From Nitrospiraceae bacterium (lineage in GTDB: Bacteria > Nitrospirota > Thermodesulfovibrionia > Thermodesulfovibrionales > UBA1546): 64,000 nucleotides of DNA. Where the stretch lies: the NCBI GenBank assembly GCA_021373015.1, contig JAJFTJ010000005.1:1-64000 (forward strand), in the 5' to 3' direction. Under the pieces are notes generated by a model. The model saw only the letters and a list, made by a program, of their open reading frames with translations. It was not told the origin of the DNA and searched no databases. Position 1 is the first letter of the stretch; every line of letters starts with the position of its first letter. Both the position numbers and the translations under genes were made by a program. Positions 25,188 through 59,423 of this stretch are shown in pieces.

Positions 25188-25415
25188 TTAAACCTTGTAT
25201 ATCCCCTCGAATTCTATATTTCCCTCAAGCAATAATTCCTGGATTTTTTCTTTATCACCACTTTCAAAACTCAGACATATTCCGCAGTCTGAACTCAGAT
25301 GCCTTGGAACTGGTATAAGCTTTACTTTAATATCAGTTCTCTTTTTTATCAGTATCTCTGATCTGATTGCTGAACTTGTTGTATTGAAAAGTACAATGCT
25401 GAAATTTTTTTCCAA
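25188..25415 (-). CDS. DUF3343 small protein, putative Se/S carrier
   Basis: 75 residues. It matches the DUF3343 pattern: FNTTSSAIRSEILIKK near the start, KLIPVPRHLSSDCGICLSF in the middle with Cys-Gly-Ile-Cys, and IEFEGIYKV at the end. The family is found beside selenium- and sulfur-handling genes and is thought to carry reactive chalcogen on its cysteine. Here it is the last gene of yedE-tusA-csd-DUF3343, only three bases after the cysteine desulfurase, so the pairing with a persulfide donor is direct. Confidence 0.8.
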   Translation of the reverse strand: MEKNFSIVLFNTTSSAIRSEILIKKRTDIKVKLIPVPRHLSSDCGICLSFESGDKEKIQELLLEGNIEFEGIYKV

Positions 25416-25418
25416 TGA

Positions 25419-26573
25419 TTATTTCCCTTTTTTTGCAATATCAGCAACTGCTTCCAATGTATTGTCTATATCTTTTTCAGTCGTGAAATAACTCATGCTG
25501 AATCTGACTGTCCCATCAGGAAATGTCCCGATTGTTTTATGAGCTGCCGGTGAGCAGTGAAGCCCTATTCTGCACATAATGTCATATTTTTCATCTAGTG
25601 TAAGCCCTATGTCGGATGAAGCAATACCTTTTATGTTGAATGAGACTGTTGCTGTTCTTTTTTCAGGATTATCCAGACCGTAAACAATTACATCCTGAAT
25701 GTTTTTTAGTCCTGTGATTAATTTTCGTGTCAGTTTTATTTCATGTTTCTGAATTTTTTTGATTCCTTCTTTGAGCACAAACTCGACTCCGGCGCCAAGT
25801 CCCGCCAATCCGATTGTGTTCGGTGTTCCGCTCTCGAACTTGTCAGGCAGAAAATCAGGCTGTTTCTCATATTCAGATCTGCTACCTGTTCCGCCTGTTT
25901 TGAGGGGCTGGAATTTTTTTATATCAATTATTTCTCCGATAATCAGCCCGCCTGTACCTTGCAGACCATAAAGGTTCTTATGTCCTGTAAATGCAAGCAG
26001 ATCTATCATATCTTTTTCAAAATCAATCGGACAGCAGCCTCCTGTTTGTGCAGCATCCAGAAGAAAGAGTGTTCCATGTTCTCTTGCAATTTTCCCTATT
26101 TCTGAAACAGGCTGGATTGTTCCTATAATATTTGAGGCGTGATTAATGACAATTAAACGAGTATTTTTTTTGATAGATTCCCTTATATCATCAGGATCTA
26201 TTAATCCATGGGAAGAACACTTTACAACACTTATTTCAATGCCGTTTTTCTCTAGCTCTCTTAATGGACGCATAACTGAGTTATGCTCGATACTGCTTGT
26301 GATTACATGATCTCCTTTTTTTAATATTCCGTTCAATGCAAGGTTCAGCGCTTCTGTTGCATTAAGTCCGAATACAATTCTAAGTGGGTCTTTTACCCCG
26401 AATAAAGCAGCTAGACTTTCTCTTGTTTTGTATATGATGCGTCCAGCTTCAATAGAAAGGCGGTGGCCTGAACGGCCGGGATTGGCTCCAATATTCCTCA
26501 GAAAATTAAGCGCAGCTTCTTCCACCTGTTTTGGTTTTGGAAAAGAAGAGGCTGCATTGTCAAGATATATCAT
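25419..26573 (-). CDS. Cysteine desulfurase / selenocysteine lyase-like class V aminotransferase
   Basis: 384 residues. PLP enzyme that takes sulfur (or selenium) from cysteine (selenocysteine) as an enzyme-bound persulfide. The PLP lysine is in TGHKNLYGLQGTGG, with the cofactor Asp/Gln in LLDAAQTGG and the substrate-region FGLNATEALN. The catalytic Cys is Cys340 in GLHCSPAAHKTIGT. This is the small stand-alone family often found with YedE/DUF3343 rather than IscS or SufS; no iscU or sufBCD lies nearby. Start ATG 26573. Confidence 0.88.
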   Translation of the reverse strand: MIYLDNAASSFPKPKQVEEAALNFLRNIGANPGRSGHRLSIEAGRIIYKTRESLAALFGVKDPLRIVFGLNATEALNLALNGILKKGDHVITSSIEHNSVMRPLRELEKNGIEISVVKCSSHGLIDPDDIRESIKKNTRLIVINHASNIIGTIQPVSEIGKIAREHGTLFLLDAAQTGGCCPIDFEKDMIDLLAFTGHKNLYGLQGTGGLIIGEIIDIKKFQPLKTGGTGSRSEYEKQPDFLPDKFESGTPNTIGLAGLGAGVEFVLKEGIKKIQKHEIKLTRKLITGLKNIQDVIVYGLDNPEKRTATVSFNIKGIASSDIGLTLDEKYDIMCRIGLHCSPAAHKTIGTFPDGTVRFSMSYFTTEKDIDNTLEAVADIAKKGK

Positions 26574-26594
26574 ATTAATTATATTGTAATGTAT

Positions 26595-26807
26595 TTACTT
26601 GGAGAGAGTGATTATATATTCTTCATTATTCTCTTTAACATAAACACCCCAGCCTGAATTTCTTGCCATTCGTGATACATTCTCTTTTGCAGTTGCATTA
26701 TCAACAAAAACTTCTAATGTCCCTTTTTTTATCTGTGACAGTTTTTTCTTTGTCTCTATAACAGGCTGAGGACATGAAAGCCCTCTTGCATCAAGTTGCT
26801 CAGTCAT
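26595..26807 (-). CDS. tusA: TusA/YedF-like sulfur carrier
   Basis: 70 residues, single SirA/TusA domain. The hallmark DARGLSCPQPVIETKK carries the sulfur-accepting Cys-Pro, and VFVDNATAKENVSRMARNSGW is the typical second half. It is shorter than the two-domain YedF selenium protein, so tusA is the safer label. It lies between the YedE transporter and the desulfurase, as expected for a carrier receiving sulfur or selenium from either. Confidence 0.9.
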   Translation of the reverse strand: MTEQLDARGLSCPQPVIETKKKLSQIKKGTLEVFVDNATAKENVSRMARNSGWGVYVKENNEEYIITLSK

Positions 26808-26820
26808 TTTTTAATTCTCC

Positions 26821-27903
26821 TTATGTTATTTTTTCTCTCATTGCAAAGCCGATAATAACGCAGACTATAAGTCCAACAATTACTGAAGCCGGTCCCCACA
26901 ATCCAGGGCCTGCCGGCGTGCTTGCAGCTGTGAAATTATGCGCAAATGCAGCTCCTGAAAACATACCGATAACAAATACTGCTGCATCGCCGTCTCCTTC
27001 GCCGGATAAAAACAACTGACGTCCCGGACATCCTCCTGCGAGTGAAAATGCAATACCAGCCAGTACCATTCCTCCAAAATTCCAGAGAATATCTGTATGA
27101 GCTATCGGCTGGTTCTCAAATCCCGGGTTGAACTGGTTGAATATCAAATTTGTTACGAATGCTCCGATTACAAGAGCAATTATTCCGCTTAGAAGATGGA
27201 AATCTTTTATTAAAATAACGTCTCTTATCGCTCCCATTGTGCAGAAGCGTGTTCTTTGTGCAAAAAATCCAATGGCTGATGCAAGAATCAATGAAAAAAA
27301 TATTGCAGCATGTTGAGAGCCTGGACCTTTAACACTGAAAAAGACAGTCCCTGTTGGAAGCTTTGGTGCAAATAAAAGCAGGAGCAGCAGTCCGATCATT
27401 ATTGCAGGCAAGATAAATCCGACAATAGAATAAGTTTTTTTATTAGCGCCTAATGAATAACCTGATTTTATGAAAAGCGAGCCGGCTCCTATTCCTGCAG
27501 AAAGACCCAATAATCCGACGATTGCATTCCCGTCTCCTCCTGCAAGTCTGAGCAGAGCTCTCCATGGACATCCAAGGAATACCAATGCACCGACCATAGC
27601 AAAAAATCCAAGTACAAATCTTACTATTGGTGCAGAGCCTGTCCTTGCCTTGAACTCCTTGAATAAAAATGCAGCCAGCATTGCGCCAAGGACAAGACCG
27701 ATGATCTCTGGACGTATATACTGAACAACACCATCTCTGTGAAAGCCAAGAGCGCCTACAATATCTCGTTCCATGCACGCAACGCAGATCCCCATATTTG
27801 CAGGATTTCCAAGTTTTTGCAGTAGAGCAGCGACAGCTCCGATAAACAGACCAACAGATACAATTCCCTTTCGCGAGCCAAAGAATGAGGTAAGGGTAGA
27901 CAT
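26821..27903 (-). CDS. yedE: YedE-type (YeeE/YedE) selenium or sulfur transporter
   Basis: 360-residue inner-membrane protein with about ten hydrophobic segments. Two internal YeeE/YedE repeats are visible through paired cysteine motifs: GCPWRALLRLAGGDGNAIVG in the first half and GGCPGRQLFLSGEGDGDAAV in the second, plus RFCTMGAIRD and CVACMERD. The GCP-R-LR-GDGNA pattern is nearer to YedE (the proposed selenium transporter group) than to the thiosulfate importer YeeE. The ATG has a strong AGGAGG site. It heads yedE-tusA-csd-DUF3343, and a palindrome lies 55 bases upstream. Confidence 0.85.
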   Translation of the reverse strand: MSTLTSFFGSRKGIVSVGLFIGAVAALLQKLGNPANMGICVACMERDIVGALGFHRDGVVQYIRPEIIGLVLGAMLAAFLFKEFKARTGSAPIVRFVLGFFAMVGALVFLGCPWRALLRLAGGDGNAIVGLLGLSAGIGAGSLFIKSGYSLGANKKTYSIVGFILPAIMIGLLLLLLFAPKLPTGTVFFSVKGPGSQHAAIFFSLILASAIGFFAQRTRFCTMGAIRDVILIKDFHLLSGIIALVIGAFVTNLIFNQFNPGFENQPIAHTDILWNFGGMVLAGIAFSLAGGCPGRQLFLSGEGDGDAAVFVIGMFSGAAFAHNFTAASTPAGPGLWGPASVIVGLIVCVIIGFAMREKIT

Positions 27904-27934
27904 GTTTACTTCCTCCTTTTGATTTACAATAAGA

Positions 27935-27978
27935 TTGTATTTGAATATACAAGGTAACCTATTGGAAATTCCAATAGG
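27935..27978. promoter_or_regulatory. Palindromic operator candidates upstream of yedE
   Basis: A 21-base palindrome (27958-27978) has perfect nine-base arms, CCTATTGGA and TCCAATAGG, around AAT. A weaker six-base inverted repeat, TTGTAT/ATACAA, is at 27935-27952. Both lie in the 176-base divergent gap between yedE and rsmE, closer to yedE. The symmetry suggests a dimeric regulator of the Se/S operon; the protein is not identified in this window. Confidence 0.6.
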
Positions 27979-28040
27979 AAATATCGATTAAAGCATCATG
28001 ATTTATAGGTTTGGCTGATTGCCTTATGAAGGGCTTTTTC

Positions 28041-28079: not shown

Positions 28080-28793
28080 ATGAAGATTATTCTTTCAACA
28101 GACGAGTTGAAAAACAAAAAAGTTTCTATCTCTGGAGAAAAGGCAAGGTATCTTATTTCTGTTCTCAGATGCAGGGTGGGAGATGAGATACAGATATTTG
28201 ACGGAGAAGGCGGACTTTATAATGCAAAAATTTCTGCACTTGAAAATAAAAGGGTCATCGCTGATCTGCCAGAAAAATTGTCTTATTCAAATGAATCGCC
28301 TTTGAATCTAATCCTTGTTCAGGGAATTCTCAAAGGCGAGAAAATGGATTGGGTTATTCAGAAAACCACTGAACTTGGAGTTAAGGGGATAATCCCTGCA
28401 ATCACAGAAAGAAGTCAGCTCAGGTATACAAGAAAACTTGCTAGATGGAAAAAGATTGCCGAAGAGGCAGCAAAGCAATGCGGAAGGACATTCATCCCTG
28501 TTATTCATGAATATATGGAATTCAATGATATTTTTAAAAAGCAGATGAATGGTCTGATATTTTATGAAGACGGAGGAATATCTTTGTCAAATGCATTGCA
28601 AAATAAAAATATCCGCGATGAGCCATTTTATGTTTTTATTGGTCCTGAAGGAGGGTTTGCAAAACAGGAGATTAAACTTGCGGAAGACAGAGGGATTATA
28701 ACAGTAAGCCTTGGAAAAAGAATACTCAAGGCAGAAACAGCAGCAATCTCAGCTTTAACACTGGTCCAGTTTATTATCGGAGATATGAATTAA
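28080..28793 (+). CDS. rsmE: 16S rRNA (uracil-1498-N3) methyltransferase
   Basis: 237-residue SPOUT-class enzyme using S-adenosylmethionine. The N-terminal PUA-like part includes KARYLISVLRCRVGDEIQIFDG. The knotted methyltransferase part has LVQGILKGEKMDWVIQKTTELGV, AAKQCGRTFIP and the SAM-binding end IGPEGGF followed by SLGKRILKAETAAI. Full length. The stop overlaps by four bases with the convergent 60-residue gene. Confidence 0.95.
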   Translation: MKIILSTDELKNKKVSISGEKARYLISVLRCRVGDEIQIFDGEGGLYNAKISALENKRVIADLPEKLSYSNESPLNLILVQGILKGEKMDWVIQKTTELGVKGIIPAITERSQLRYTRKLARWKKIAEEAAKQCGRTFIPVIHEYMEFNDIFKKQMNGLIFYEDGGISLSNALQNKNIRDEPFYVFIGPEGGFAKQEIKLAEDRGIITVSLGKRILKAETAAISALTLVQFIIGDMN

Positions 28794-55167: not shown

Positions 55168-56334
55168 ATGAAAATAAACATAGGACCAAACACTCTAAAT
55201 AAAATACTGGGGATATCGCTGCTAATTTTTTCGGTTTCATTTATTGCTGCATGTTCTGGAGGAAAACCCGATAAAGGCAAGACAATGCCTGTTCCTGTCC
55301 TTGTTGCAAGTGTTTCAAAAGAAACAGTGCCTGTTCAGATCAATGCAATAGGGAATATTGAGGCGTATTCAACTGTCTCGATAAAGGCGCGCGTCAACGG
55401 AGAGTTAACGGCTGTTCACTTTCAAGAAGGCAAAGATGTCAATAAGGGCGATCTGCTTTTTACCATAGACCCCAGACCATATAAGGCAGCGCTGGATTCT
55501 GCAAAAGCTAATCTTTTAAAGGATACGGCTTTATACAAAAAAGCTGAAGAAGACGAAAAAAGATATTCAGAACTCTACAAAGAACAGCTTGTGAGCAGAT
55601 CGCAGTATGAGCAGATTTTTGCAAATGCCGAGGCTTTAAAGGCAACAGTTGAAGCTGATAAAGCGGCTGTTGAGAACGCTGAGCTTCAGTTAAGTTATTG
55701 CACGATACATGCTCCAATTTCAGGAAAGACAGGAAGCCTGCTTTTTAATAAGGGAAATCAGATAAAGGCTAATGATGATAAGGCAATGGTTGTTATTAAT
55801 CAGCTGCAGCCGACATATGTGAATTTCTCTGTGCCTGAGCAGAATTTCCCTGAGATAAAGAAATATATGTCAAAGGGCTCTTTGAAGATCGAGGCGGTTG
55901 TTGCAAAAGACTATCAGGATACAGAAAAAGGAACACTTAGCTTCATTGATAATGCAGTTGATGCATCAACAGGGACTATAAGAATAAAAGGAACCTTTGC
56001 GAACAAGAGCAAGAGACTCTGGCCGGGGCAGTTTGTGAATGTTGTCATGACATTAACGACACAACCTGATGCAATCGTTGTTCCTTTGCAGGCGGTGCAG
56101 ACAGGCCAGAGCGGACAGTATGTTTTTGTTGTAAAGAATGATATGACTGTTGAAATGCGTCCTGTTGTGGCGAACAGGAGTTTCAATGACAAGGCTGTTA
56201 TTGAAAAAGGTCTGCAGCCTAATGAGAAAGTTGTTACAGATGGACAGATGAAGCTTATTCCCGGAGTAAAAATAGAGATCAAGGACGGGAAAAACAGCAA
56301 AGAGATTAAAGAAAAACAAGGCAGCAAACAATAA
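55168..56334 (+). CDS. RND efflux periplasmic adaptor lipoprotein
   Basis: 388 residues of the AcrA/MexA type. Signal peptide with lipobox FIAAC (lipidated Cys). The order is lipoyl half (IGNIEAYSTVSIKARVNGEL), helical hairpin, second lipoyl half (LSYCTIHAPISGKTGSLLFNKGN), then beta-barrel and membrane-proximal parts (DQ-rich end VVTDGQMKLIPGVKIEI). Its stop and the ATG of the pump gene overlap by one base, indicating coupled production. Confidence 0.94.
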   Translation: MKINIGPNTLNKILGISLLIFSVSFIAACSGGKPDKGKTMPVPVLVASVSKETVPVQINAIGNIEAYSTVSIKARVNGELTAVHFQEGKDVNKGDLLFTIDPRPYKAALDSAKANLLKDTALYKKAEEDEKRYSELYKEQLVSRSQYEQIFANAEALKATVEADKAAVENAELQLSYCTIHAPISGKTGSLLFNKGNQIKANDDKAMVVINQLQPTYVNFSVPEQNFPEIKKYMSKGSLKIEAVVAKDYQDTEKGTLSFIDNAVDASTGTIRIKGTFANKSKRLWPGQFVNVVMTLTTQPDAIVVPLQAVQTGQSGQYVFVVKNDMTVEMRPVVANRSFNDKAVIEKGLQPNEKVVTDGQMKLIPGVKIEIKDGKNSKEIKEKQGSKQ

Positions 56335-59300
56335 TGAATATCGCTGAGATTTTTATAAAAAGACCTGTCATGACAACGCTTGTCATGACAGCATTAGTGC
56401 TTTTTGGGATTATCGGTTACAAATTTCTGCCTGTTAATGACCTGCCGAGTGTGGATTTCCCTACAATAAATGTCACGGCAGATCTGCCGGGCGCCAGCCC
56501 TGAGACTATGGCATCAGCAGTAGCCACTCCTTTGGAAAGACAGTTTTCTACAATTGCTGGTATTGATTCAATGACATCAACAAATACTTTAGGGAAAACG
56601 CAGATTACACTCCAATTTAATCTCAGCCGTAATATTGATGCAGCAGCGCAGGATGTTCAGGCAATGATCTCGAAGTCAGCGCGTCTGCTTCCGCCTGATA
56701 TGCCGAGTCCTCCTTCATATCAGAAGGTTAACCCTGCTGATTCCCCGGTTATTTTTATTTCGATGAATTCTCCTACTCTGCCGCTTTCAACAGTGAATGA
56801 ATATGCAGATACATATGTTGCACAGCGCATCTCGATGATTAGCGGAGTGGCTCAGGTTATGATTTATGGCGCTCAGAAATATGCAGTGCGCGTTCAGCTT
56901 AATCCTGAAGCCTTATCCTACAGAGGCATTGGCATTGATGAGATCATGAATGCTGTTTCAAAGGCTAATGTTAATTTGCCTATAGGCGCTTTATACGGTT
57001 CTGACAAGGCATTTACATTACAGGCAAGCGGTCAGCTTTATGAAGCTTCGGCATATCGCAAATTGATAGTGGCTTACCGCAACGGCTCTCCTGTGTATCT
57101 TGAGCAGCTTGGAAATGTCATAGACAGTGTGGAGAACAGCAGATTGGCCAGTTGGTATAATGATACGCGTTCGATTGTTCTTGCTATTCAGCGCCAGCCC
57201 GGAACGAACACTATTGAAGTAGTTGATTCAATTAAAGCTCTTCTTCCGGCTTTTCGCGCTCAGATACCTGCATCAATTAATCTAAATATACTTTTTGACA
57301 GATCTGTTTCTATTAAGGAATCAGTCAATGAGGTTAAATTCACACTATTTCTTGCAATCTGTCTTGTTGTTCTCGTTATATTTCTGTTTTTAAGAAATCT
57401 TTCTGCAACAGTAATTCCAAGTCTTGCCTTGCCAATATCGATCATATTTACTTTTGCGGCAATGTATCTTCTTGATTACAGCATTAATAATTTTTCATTA
57501 TTGGCGATGATCCTCGCTGTAGGATTTGTTGTAGATGACGCTATTGTTATGCTGGAAAACATCGTCAGACATATGGAAAAGGGCGAGAGTGTAAAGGAAG
57601 CTGCATTGAAAGGCTCGAAGGAAATTGGATTTACCATTTTATCAATGACATTATCGCTGGTTGCAGTATTTATCCCCGTACTTTTTATGGGCGGGATACT
57701 CGGCCGTCTGCTTCATGAATTTGCAGTCACAATAAGCATGGCAATTCTTGTATCTGGGTTTGTGTCATTGAGCCTTACGCCGATGCTTTGCAGTAAATTT
57801 ATACGGCCTCACGGTGAAGAACGCCACGGCAGGCTTTACATGACACTTGAGAAATTTTTTAACAAGATGCTTGATACATACAAATGGAGTCTTGATATAG
57901 TCCTAAAGCACAGAAGAACAACTATGATAATTACAGTCATTATGTTAATCCTAAGTCTTTTTATGTTCGCTTCAATGCCAAAGGGATTTCTTCCAAGCGA
58001 GGATATAGGAAGAATTTTTGCATTTACAGAGGCACAGCAGGGGATTTCTTTTGATGCAATGGTAAAACGCCAAAAGGAATTGGCGGATATTATAAGCAAG
58101 GATCCTAATGTTGATGCCTTTATGTCAGTAGTAGGTGCAGCAGGTCCTAGCTCTTCACTCAATACAGGAAGAATGTTCATAAATCTAAAGCCGCGCTCAG
58201 AACGTAAATTGAGAGCAGAGGGAGTTATACAGGAACTCAGAAAAAAAACTTCTAATGTAACTGGAATACAAATTTTTATGCAAAACCCTCCGCCTATTGT
58301 TATCGGCGGCAGATTAACAAAAGGGCAGTATCAGTACACTCTCCAGGGGCCTGATATAGAAGAACTTTATAAATATTCTGCAATACTCGAAATGAAACTT
58401 CGTGAAATCCCGATTCTTCAAGATGTAACAAGCGATCTTCAGATAAAAAATCCTCAGTTGGATATTGATATAAACAGGGATAAGGCCTCGGCATTAGGAA
58501 TAAGCGCCCAGCAGATAGAAGATGCTTTAAGCACCGCATATTCTACAAGACAGATATCTACAATATACGCTCCAACTAATCAGTATCAGGTTATTATGGA
58601 GGTAGAATCAAAATATCAGCTGGATCCATCGGCATTGCTGTTATTATATGTCAGGTCTTCTTCCGGGAAACTAGTTCCTTTAAATGCTATTGCAGACCTT
58701 AAAAATACCGTTGGTCCTCTGTCAGTCAATCATCAGGGACAGCTTCCTGCAGTTACGCTTTCATTTAATCTAAGACCTGATGTATCTTTGAGCGAGGCTG
58801 TCTCATCTGTTGATAAAGCGTCGAGTGCAACCCTGCCTCAAACCATAAGCACAAATTTTGGCGGCACAGCTCAGGCGTTTCAATCATCAATGCAAAATTT
58901 ATGGATTCTTTTAATTGTAGCTGTGCTTGTTATATACATTGTTCTCGGAATACTTTATGAAAGTTTTATCCATCCGATAACTATTCTTTCAGGTCTGCCG
59001 TCTGCAAGTTTCGGAGCATTATTTACGCTTATGATATTCGGTATGGAACTTAATATCTATGGATTTGTTGGAATAATCATGCTTATTGGGATTGTTAAGA
59101 AAAATGCGATTATGATGATAGATTTTGCGCTTGTTGCCCAAAGGGAAAAAGGCGAGGAGCCTGCTGAAGCCATATATGAAGGATGTATTGTAAGGTTCCG
59201 TCCGATTATGATGACAACAATGTCAGCTATGATGGGAATATTGCCAATTGCCCTTGGTTTTGGCGCCGGCGCTGATGTGCGTCGTCCATTAGGACTTGCT

Positions 59301-59423
59301 GTTGTTGGCGGTCTTGTAGTTTCACAGTTAATGACGCTGTATGTTACTCCTGTTTTTTATGTATATATGGAGGCATTCAAAGATAAGGTGAATGAATGGA
59401 GACATTCCAAAAAAAATCAGTAA
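56334..59423 (+). CDS. RND multidrug efflux pump (AcrB/MdtB type)
   Basis: 1029 residues, 12 TM helices with two large periplasmic loops. Start MNIAEIFIKRPVMTTLVMTALVL is typical. Proton-relay residues: the Asp pair in VGFVVDDAIVMLENIVRHME (near residue 400) and the Lys in GIVKKNAIMMIDFAL (near 920). Other landmarks: QPGTNTIEVVD, GMELNIYGFVGIIMLIG and GFGAGADVRRPLGLAVVGG. It resembles MdtB/MdtC-like subunits more than AcrB, but one copy is present here, so it is probably homotrimeric. Confidence 0.96.
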   Translation: MNIAEIFIKRPVMTTLVMTALVLFGIIGYKFLPVNDLPSVDFPTINVTADLPGASPETMASAVATPLERQFSTIAGIDSMTSTNTLGKTQITLQFNLSRNIDAAAQDVQAMISKSARLLPPDMPSPPSYQKVNPADSPVIFISMNSPTLPLSTVNEYADTYVAQRISMISGVAQVMIYGAQKYAVRVQLNPEALSYRGIGIDEIMNAVSKANVNLPIGALYGSDKAFTLQASGQLYEASAYRKLIVAYRNGSPVYLEQLGNVIDSVENSRLASWYNDTRSIVLAIQRQPGTNTIEVVDSIKALLPAFRAQIPASINLNILFDRSVSIKESVNEVKFTLFLAICLVVLVIFLFLRNLSATVIPSLALPISIIFTFAAMYLLDYSINNFSLLAMILAVGFVVDDAIVMLENIVRHMEKGESVKEAALKGSKEIGFTILSMTLSLVAVFIPVLFMGGILGRLLHEFAVTISMAILVSGFVSLSLTPMLCSKFIRPHGEERHGRLYMTLEKFFNKMLDTYKWSLDIVLKHRRTTMIITVIMLILSLFMFASMPKGFLPSEDIGRIFAFTEAQQGISFDAMVKRQKELADIISKDPNVDAFMSVVGAAGPSSSLNTGRMFINLKPRSERKLRAEGVIQELRKKTSNVTGIQIFMQNPPPIVIGGRLTKGQYQYTLQGPDIEELYKYSAILEMKLREIPILQDVTSDLQIKNPQLDIDINRDKASALGISAQQIEDALSTAYSTRQISTIYAPTNQYQVIMEVESKYQLDPSALLLLYVRSSSGKLVPLNAIADLKNTVGPLSVNHQGQLPAVTLSFNLRPDVSLSEAVSSVDKASSATLPQTISTNFGGTAQAFQSSMQNLWILLIVAVLVIYIVLGILYESFIHPITILSGLPSASFGALFTLMIFGMELNIYGFVGIIMLIGIVKKNAIMMIDFALVAQREKGEEPAEAIYEGCIVRFRPIMMTTMSAMMGILPIALGFGAGADVRRPLGLAVVGGLVVSQLMTLYVTPVFYVYMEAFKDKVNEWRHSKKNQ

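Follow-up and report, generated by a model that had tools for sequence, protein, structure and literature searches.

Lin et al. 2015 (PMC5322559) described, in Slackia heliotrinireducens and other organisms, a gene cluster that combines the permease YedE, a SirA-like (TusA-family) protein, a selenocysteine lyase, and DUF3343, and that is linked to SelD and to organisms that use selenocysteine. They also described the LysR_Se subfamily of regulators; the accessible part of their paper gives a DNA operator for neither the cluster nor the subfamily. In Methanococcus, HrsM, a regulator of this type (LysR_Se or NF040786), binds to the region between frc and vhc (PMC11097638). The thiosulfate transporter TsuA (YeeE) resembles YedE in its fold and in having a neighboring TusA-family partner, TsuB (YeeD), which is proposed to dock at the exit of YeeE on the cytoplasmic side, where it would accept thiosulfate on a conserved cysteine (PMC11073785). 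An enzyme related to the desulfurase, SclA of Enterococcus faecalis, is encoded in a selD operon and prefers selenocysteine over cysteine (PMC13188914). According to the accessible parts of two papers, no dedicated selenium transporter has been established in any organism (PMC11097638, PMC13188914). Here, we analyze a four-gene operon and its promoter in a 64,000-nucleotide stretch of DNA (the window) from a Nitrospiraceae bacterium of the order Thermodesulfovibrionales (GenBank assembly GCA_021373015.1, contig JAJFTJ010000005.1, positions 1 to 64,000). The four-gene set is already known from Lin et al. 2015, which makes the operon a typical example of its class. We regard it as a true selenium operon, one of an established type that quite probably serves in selenium acquisition and delivery. 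What our analysis adds is a candidate operator of a selenium regulon, namely a 26-bp element upstream of yedE, which has one copy in the window.

The operon is a minus-strand run of four open reading frames (ORFs) in the order yedE-tusA-desulfurase-DUF3343, with gaps of 13, 21, and 3 bp (Table 1). The initial annotation, which was made from the sequence without database searches, had described four adjoining minus-strand genes 3 to 21 bases apart, encoding a YedE-type permease with a GCP motif in both halves, a TusA-like carrier, a class V desulfurase with Cys340, and a DUF3343 protein, and all of this agrees with the ORF coordinates and the profile searches. Each protein passed the cut-off of its family (Table 1). 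The GCP motifs of YedE, one per half, contain Cys112 and Cys292; the TusA-like protein has a CPxP motif with Cys12; the desulfurase has TGHK from position 196 as well as Cys340; and the DUF3343 protein has SSDCGIC with Cys44 and Cys47 and is encoded by the only PF11823 gene that was found in a search of the whole genome. More specific assignments were rejected. YedE is excluded from the TsuA thiosulfate transporter family (NF052577, 43.8 bits, cut-off 400), although the fold matches. The TusA-like protein consists of a single domain and lacks the DsrE half that YedF has, and it is excluded as a two-domain YedF (TIGR03527, 72.3 bits, cut-off 110, covering just positions 1-65 of 194). The desulfurase is excluded as a SclA selenocysteine lyase (NF040779, 406.1 bits, cut-off 525).

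The genome (1.69 Mb in 22 contigs, with a listed completeness of 100%) encodes the machinery to use selenium. selD is outside the window, as the initial annotation had said, and lies on contig C14 (134970-135890; SelD profile, 333.9 bits). It has one in-frame TGA, and the read-through is MDYRLTEKVKAAG*AGKVGP. This places the TGA within an AAG*AGK segment, which we take to be the active-site segment of SelD, so the UGA presumably falls in the active site. We also found selB (C14:124901-126748, 382.8 bits), selA (C7:88345-89694, 610.7 bits), a tRNA-Sec gene on C12 (anticodon tca, 69 bits), and a homologue of the alpha subunit of formate dehydrogenase (FdhA; C21:71022-73025) with one TGA in a classical selenocysteine context, CARVUHAPTVAGL. 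Thus, selA, selB, selC, and selD occur together, which is the selenocysteine-decoding trait. The initial annotation had favored the selenium group for this operon, subject to the genome having selenium traits; because selD, selB, selA, tRNA-Sec, and a UGA-containing fdhA are present, that preference holds. For the other use of selenium that we searched for, SelU/MnmH (TIGR03167), there was no match in this genome at E ≤ 0.001, and none of 101 genomes of the order had a match over the cut-off, as compared to 1 of 14 controls. Since SelU was not found at the search sensitivity used, selenocysteine is the most likely destination of the selenium. Two LysR genes in the genome exceed the cut-off of 250 bits for NF040786 (LysR_Sec_metab), and one of them is close to selD (Table 1).

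We then compared the operon to its relatives in the 101 genomes of the order Thermodesulfovibrionales and in a scan of GTDB contigs. Among the best 80 of 572 YedE relatives in GTDB, tusA is directly after yedE in 77 of the 79 loci with room for it, the desulfurase gene is next in 20 of the 66 loci with room (23 of 80 overall), the complete yedE-tusA-desulfurase-DUF3343 order occurs in 18, and selD is somewhere within the locus in 27. selD flanks the four-gene cluster in L109, L112, L130, L137, L154, and L156, and the genes of L109 and L112 run selD-yedE-tusA-desulfurase-DUF3343. The highest identities to the window's YedE in this set (70-73%) are from Spirochaetes, Atribacteria, and deltaproteobacterial metagenome-assembled genomes; identities to relatives from its own order are lower (60-66% in the alignment). 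The desulfurase family TIGR01977 is over the cut-off in just 4 of the 101 genomes of the order. Besides the window's genome, these are G094, in which the desulfurase shares an operon with selD, YedF, and DUF3343, and G054 and G063, in which DUF3343-YedF-desulfurase adjoins selB. Thus, the operon in the window may be a horizontally acquired version.

Three side observations arose from these comparisons. First, in many yedE-tusA operons, the desulfurase is replaced by a longer DUF3343-domain protein and a protein of about 290 amino acids with weak similarity to PF01256 (Carb_kinase/YjeF-C), as in L066 (11635-12528), L057 (11303-12151), L058, and L041. Of 55 informative GTDB loci, 28 contain the PF01256-like gene, 17 contain the desulfurase gene, none contain both, and 10 contain neither; the PF01256-like gene is also found in all 15 of the TusA-linked relatives in the order. 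This makes it a candidate for an unnamed selenium gene. Among the matches listed by a literature search, no paper joins YjeF with SelD. Second, G054 and G063 (loci L104 and L105), which belong to one genus and are 98 and 96% complete, have selB and tRNA-Sec and no SelD over the cut-off, possibly due to assembly gaps. Third, a diverged group of YedE proteins (about 37-42% identity; L055, L056, L059, L064, L067, L068, L070, and L072) passes TIGR04112 and lacks TusA. At the three of these loci that we inspected, genes for other membrane proteins and for periplasmic proteins surround it, and the name of the family may be too broad here.

Upstream of yedE, the initial annotation had pointed to a promoter palindrome. 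The dyad is real (Table 1). It forms the end of a larger conserved element of the promoter, which had been missed. The window contains four dyads with arms of at least 10 bp and loops of at most 3 bp, as compared to 0.55 expected from Markov shuffles. (Elsewhere in the window, a dyad with 12-bp arms, CTGTCATGACAACGCTTGTCATGACAG, lies at 56365-56391, near the start of a 1,029-amino-acid ORF at 56334-59423.) Allowing up to 3 mismatches, the yedE dyad occurs once in its own genome and once in 20 relatives (in G012, with 3 mismatches), so the exact 21-bp palindrome is excluded as a shared operator. The wider 26-bp element, whose 3' part overlaps the dyad, is shared. In aligned yedE upstreams of relatives from the order, a block recurs around the -35, and Gibbs sampling of 84 nonredundant 200-bp upstreams (88 before near-duplicates were dropped, with the window excluded) converged on ATngatAttAtCaATTTgAcatatag. 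Repeat runs gave log-likelihoods of 742, 741, and 632, versus 485 to 504 for six shuffled sets. The element contains TTGACA, which is followed by a TATAAT-like hexamer, with 17 bp as the most frequent distance (11 of 39 sites match at least 5 of 6 positions). With a scoring matrix of 51 sites, trained without this genome, the best score in the 64-kb window was at the yedE promoter (Table 1). A score of 19.6 bits was reached anywhere in just 1 of 30 shuffled windows, so by our arithmetic, the chance of such a match in the 200 bp upstream of yedE is about 5e-5.

Table 1. Features of the operon and its promoter, and the two LysR_Sec_metab regulators encoded elsewhere in the genome
Feature	Position	Strand	Details
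yedE, TIGR04112 (seleno_YedE) putative selenium permease, 360 aa	window 26821-27903	-	474.5 bits (cut-off 200)
TusA/SirA-like carrier, 70 aa	window 26595-26807	-	PF01206, 73.9 bits (cut-off 28.6)
Class V pyridoxal phosphate enzyme, TIGR01977 (cysteine desulfurase / selenocysteine lyase-like), 384 aa	window 25419-26573	-	503 bits (cut-off 377)
DUF3343 / Se_S_carrier, 75 aa	window 25188-25415	-	PF11823, 77.5 bits (cut-off 25); TTG start
AGGAGG ribosome-binding site of yedE	window 27912-27917	-	read from the sequence
Perfect dyad CCTATTGGAA-T-TTCCAATAGG	window 27958-27978		two perfect 10-bp arms, 55-75 nt upstream of yedE ATG
Conserved promoter element ATCGATATTTCCTATTGGAATTTCCA	window 27963-27988	-	-85 to -60 from yedE ATG; 19.6 bits
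Candidate -35, TTGGAA (weak)	window 27969-27974	-	inside the element; based on where TTGACA lies in relatives
Candidate -10, TATATT (weak)	window 27944-27949	-	5/6 match, spacer 19 bp; inferred
LysR_Sec_metab regulator	C7:159028-159903		NF040786, 316.6 bits
LysR_Sec_metab regulator, close to selD	C14:132392-133270		NF040786, 286.9 bits

Beside the operon, a gene that we take to be dnaJ converges on its 3' end, and a presumably RsmE-like gene diverges from it at 28080.

The element ("the box") is found before other selenium genes as well. Of the 80 yedE loci from GTDB, 77 had at least 150 bp upstream, and 40 of these have a box scoring at least 17 within 500 bp of yedE (0.05 expected). Among genes that were not used for training, the box precedes selB (4 of 8), HGD-D (2 of 7), selD (3 of 34), and yedF (2 of 19), or 11 of 68 selenium genes other than yedE, some of which were counted twice in overlapping or closely related loci (L104 and L105), as compared to 6 of 1,253 control ORFs (Fisher P = 2.9e-11). 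Of the six control matches, one is the window's own site read on the reverse strand, and another belongs to an ORF that lies upstream of yedE in L182. yedE is absent from G054 and G063, where boxes scoring 24.5 and 24.7 precede selB. In L103 (4860-8844), one boxed operon combines genes for an HGD-D double-cubane reductase and the corresponding activase with selD, DUF3343, YedF, and the desulfurase, and L185 has a further HGD-D gene with a box. There were no matches before the activase (6 genes), the PF01256-like gene (49), the desulfurase (30), lysR (10), fdhA (1), or the diverged yedE (7), which are mostly internal to operons or few in number. In the window's own genome, selB has a weak copy (13.2 bits; ATAGAGTTTTTCTATTTTATTGTTTG, L101:18804-18829, minus strand) about 55 nt upstream; the stretches for selA, selC, fdhA, selD, and both lysR genes have no site above 13 bits.

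The presence of the box is associated with the presence of a LysR_Sec_metab regulator. We examined 50 loci, comprising the 25 highest and 25 lowest of 74 scores; L124 was left out and two loci were in one genome, which left 48 genomes. NF040786 was over the cut-off in 29 of the 32 genomes with a box within 500 bp and in 7 of the 16 without (P = 9e-4). Under our first rule (200 bp), the counts were 22 of 24 versus 14 of 24 (P = 0.017), and with 1,500 bp, they were 31 of 34 versus 5 of 14; the 500- and 1,500-bp rules were set after boxes farther upstream had been seen. All 9 of the genomes from the order that were tested have NF040786 over the cut-off. A literature search, with subscription journals mostly outside its reach, found no operator or binding motif for a bacterial LysR_Se.

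With moderate confidence, we favor the view that ATMGATATTATCTATTTGACATATAG (27963-27988) is an operator read by LysR_Sec_metab, belonging to a bacterial selenium regulon that is conserved across several phyla. It would overlap the -35 of yedE promoters and, depending on the lineage, also precede selB, selD, yedF, and HGD-D genes; in this genome, it would control the yedE operon and perhaps selB. Some results sit poorly with this view. The association of box and regulator is confounded by kinship. None of 40 selD upstreams from the order scored 15 or more (0.1 expected), and neither did any of 20 iscS-type controls. The box is found in just 3 of 30 LysR loci. Two broader proposals are thereby excluded: that selD is a general regulon member in the order, and that LysR is generally autoregulated by the box (by position, the boxes of L203 and L208 are neighboring yedE promoters).

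It seems unlikely that the palindrome and the box are a plain sigma-70 promoter with a chance dyad and no selenium regulator bound. Such a promoter would account for the TTGACA within the element, for a perfect dyad that is unique to its own genome apart from the 3-mismatch copy in a relative, and for the 40 selD upstreams without a box, and we count the poor -35 of the window's site in its favor as well. It does not fit with the enrichment of the box before selenium genes relative to control ORFs (P = 3e-11), with the roughly 11 of the matrix's 18.9 bits (summed by hand) that are in columns 5' of the -35, or with the more frequent LysR_Sec_metab in genomes with the box.

How might the operon work? 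Six cysteines of YedE (Cys40, Cys43, Cys112, Cys221, Cys292, and Cys348) are invariant in 39 aligned homologues. An AlphaFold2 model built with these homologues has a predicted local distance difference test score of 88.5 and a predicted template modeling score of 0.88. At E ≤ 0.001, Foldseek matched it to YeeE/TsuA entries only, and with VIA-align, these had Z scores of 23 to 25 over 275 to 288 residues, while the next entry had 4.8. In a phmmer alignment to 6leo, Cys221, Cys292, and Cys112 of YedE are opposite Cys22, Cys91, and Cys293 of YeeE (as paired by eye). The YeeE/YedE-type fold is pseudo-symmetric. The halves of the two proteins pair crosswise in the sequence alignment and are colinear in the structural alignment, and we considered a circular permutation. 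Because TsuA-TsuB (YeeE-YeeD) has the closest fold and tusA so regularly follows yedE, a relay from transporter to carrier, as suggested in the initial annotation, is plausible.

We propose that transcription begins behind the box that overlaps the -35, which is probably bound by LysR_Sec_metab. YedE would move a selenium species across the inner membrane, most likely inward. The TusA-like protein would dock on the cytoplasmic side of YedE and accept selenium on its single cysteine, as is proposed for YeeD with thiosulfate. The TIGR01977 enzyme might release selenium from selenocysteine or form a perselenide at Cys340, and DUF3343 could be a small thiol carrier toward the selenophosphate synthetase SelD, which is encoded elsewhere. 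SelA, SelB, and tRNA-Sec would then insert selenocysteine into proteins, for example into formate dehydrogenase and into SelD.

Several points weigh against a role in selenium acquisition and delivery. TIGR04112 is over the cut-off in 24 of the 101 genomes of the order, and SelD is over the cut-off in all 24; however, SelD is nearly universal in the order and is also found in 65 of the 77 genomes without YedE, so the co-occurrence is not significant (Fisher P = 0.064). Eight of those 24 YedE proteins are diverged copies with no TusA nearby, so a TIGR04112 score alone is no proof of a selenium-operon context. The desulfurase is under the SclA cut-off, and DUF3343 is also found outside of selenium organisms (Lin et al. 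2015, PMC5322559). A yedE deletion strain of Methanococcus maripaludis retained the use of every selenium species tested, as far as the accessible part of that study reports (PMC11097638), and Lin et al. 2015 also considered an exporter role for YedE.

We think it improbable that this is instead a sulfur operon, in which YedE imports thiosulfate or sulfane sulfur and the TusA-like protein, desulfurase, and DUF3343 feed tRNA thiolation or cofactors. TusA proteins and desulfurases of class V typically work with sulfur, and the nearest solved fold is that of a thiosulfate transporter with a TusA-like partner. Nevertheless, YedE scores 474 bits against TIGR04112 and just 43.8 against the TsuA family NF052577 (cut-off 400), yedE loci are repeatedly linked to selD, and the promoter box is common to selB, selD, yedF, and HGD-D genes. 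A unit for selenium export or detoxification, which would clear an excess of the element and which Lin et al. 2015 (PMC5322559) put forward for YedE, is slightly less probable still, given that the YeeE-YeeD pair is an importer (PMC11073785), that the yedE transcript of M. maripaludis rises by 5.28 log2 units upon selenium depletion (PMC11097638), and that the carriers and the selenocysteine lyase-like enzyme behind the permease suggest delivery.

As a candidate for a route from uptake to SelD, the operon is compact and well bounded. The box addresses selenium sensing in bacteria, which is largely an open question: if it is the operator of LysR_Sec_metab, then selenium-regulated genes could be called in many genomes, and there would be a sequence to test in vitro and a handle on the effector.

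Compared to TsuA/YeeE, the YedE of the window has the additional invariant cysteines Cys40 and Cys43, is far under the TsuA cut-off, and has its halves matched crosswise in the best sequence alignment. The desulfurase, with 406 bits against a SclA cut-off of 525, differs from the E. faecalis enzyme. The regulator family LysR_Se (HrsM, NF040786 LysR_Sec_metab) has two members in the window's genome. Finally, relative to the cluster of Lin et al. 2015 (PMC5322559), for which the accessible part of the paper also lists the two-domain YedF, the operon in the window has just the one-domain TusA-like protein, and its genome has selD away from the operon.

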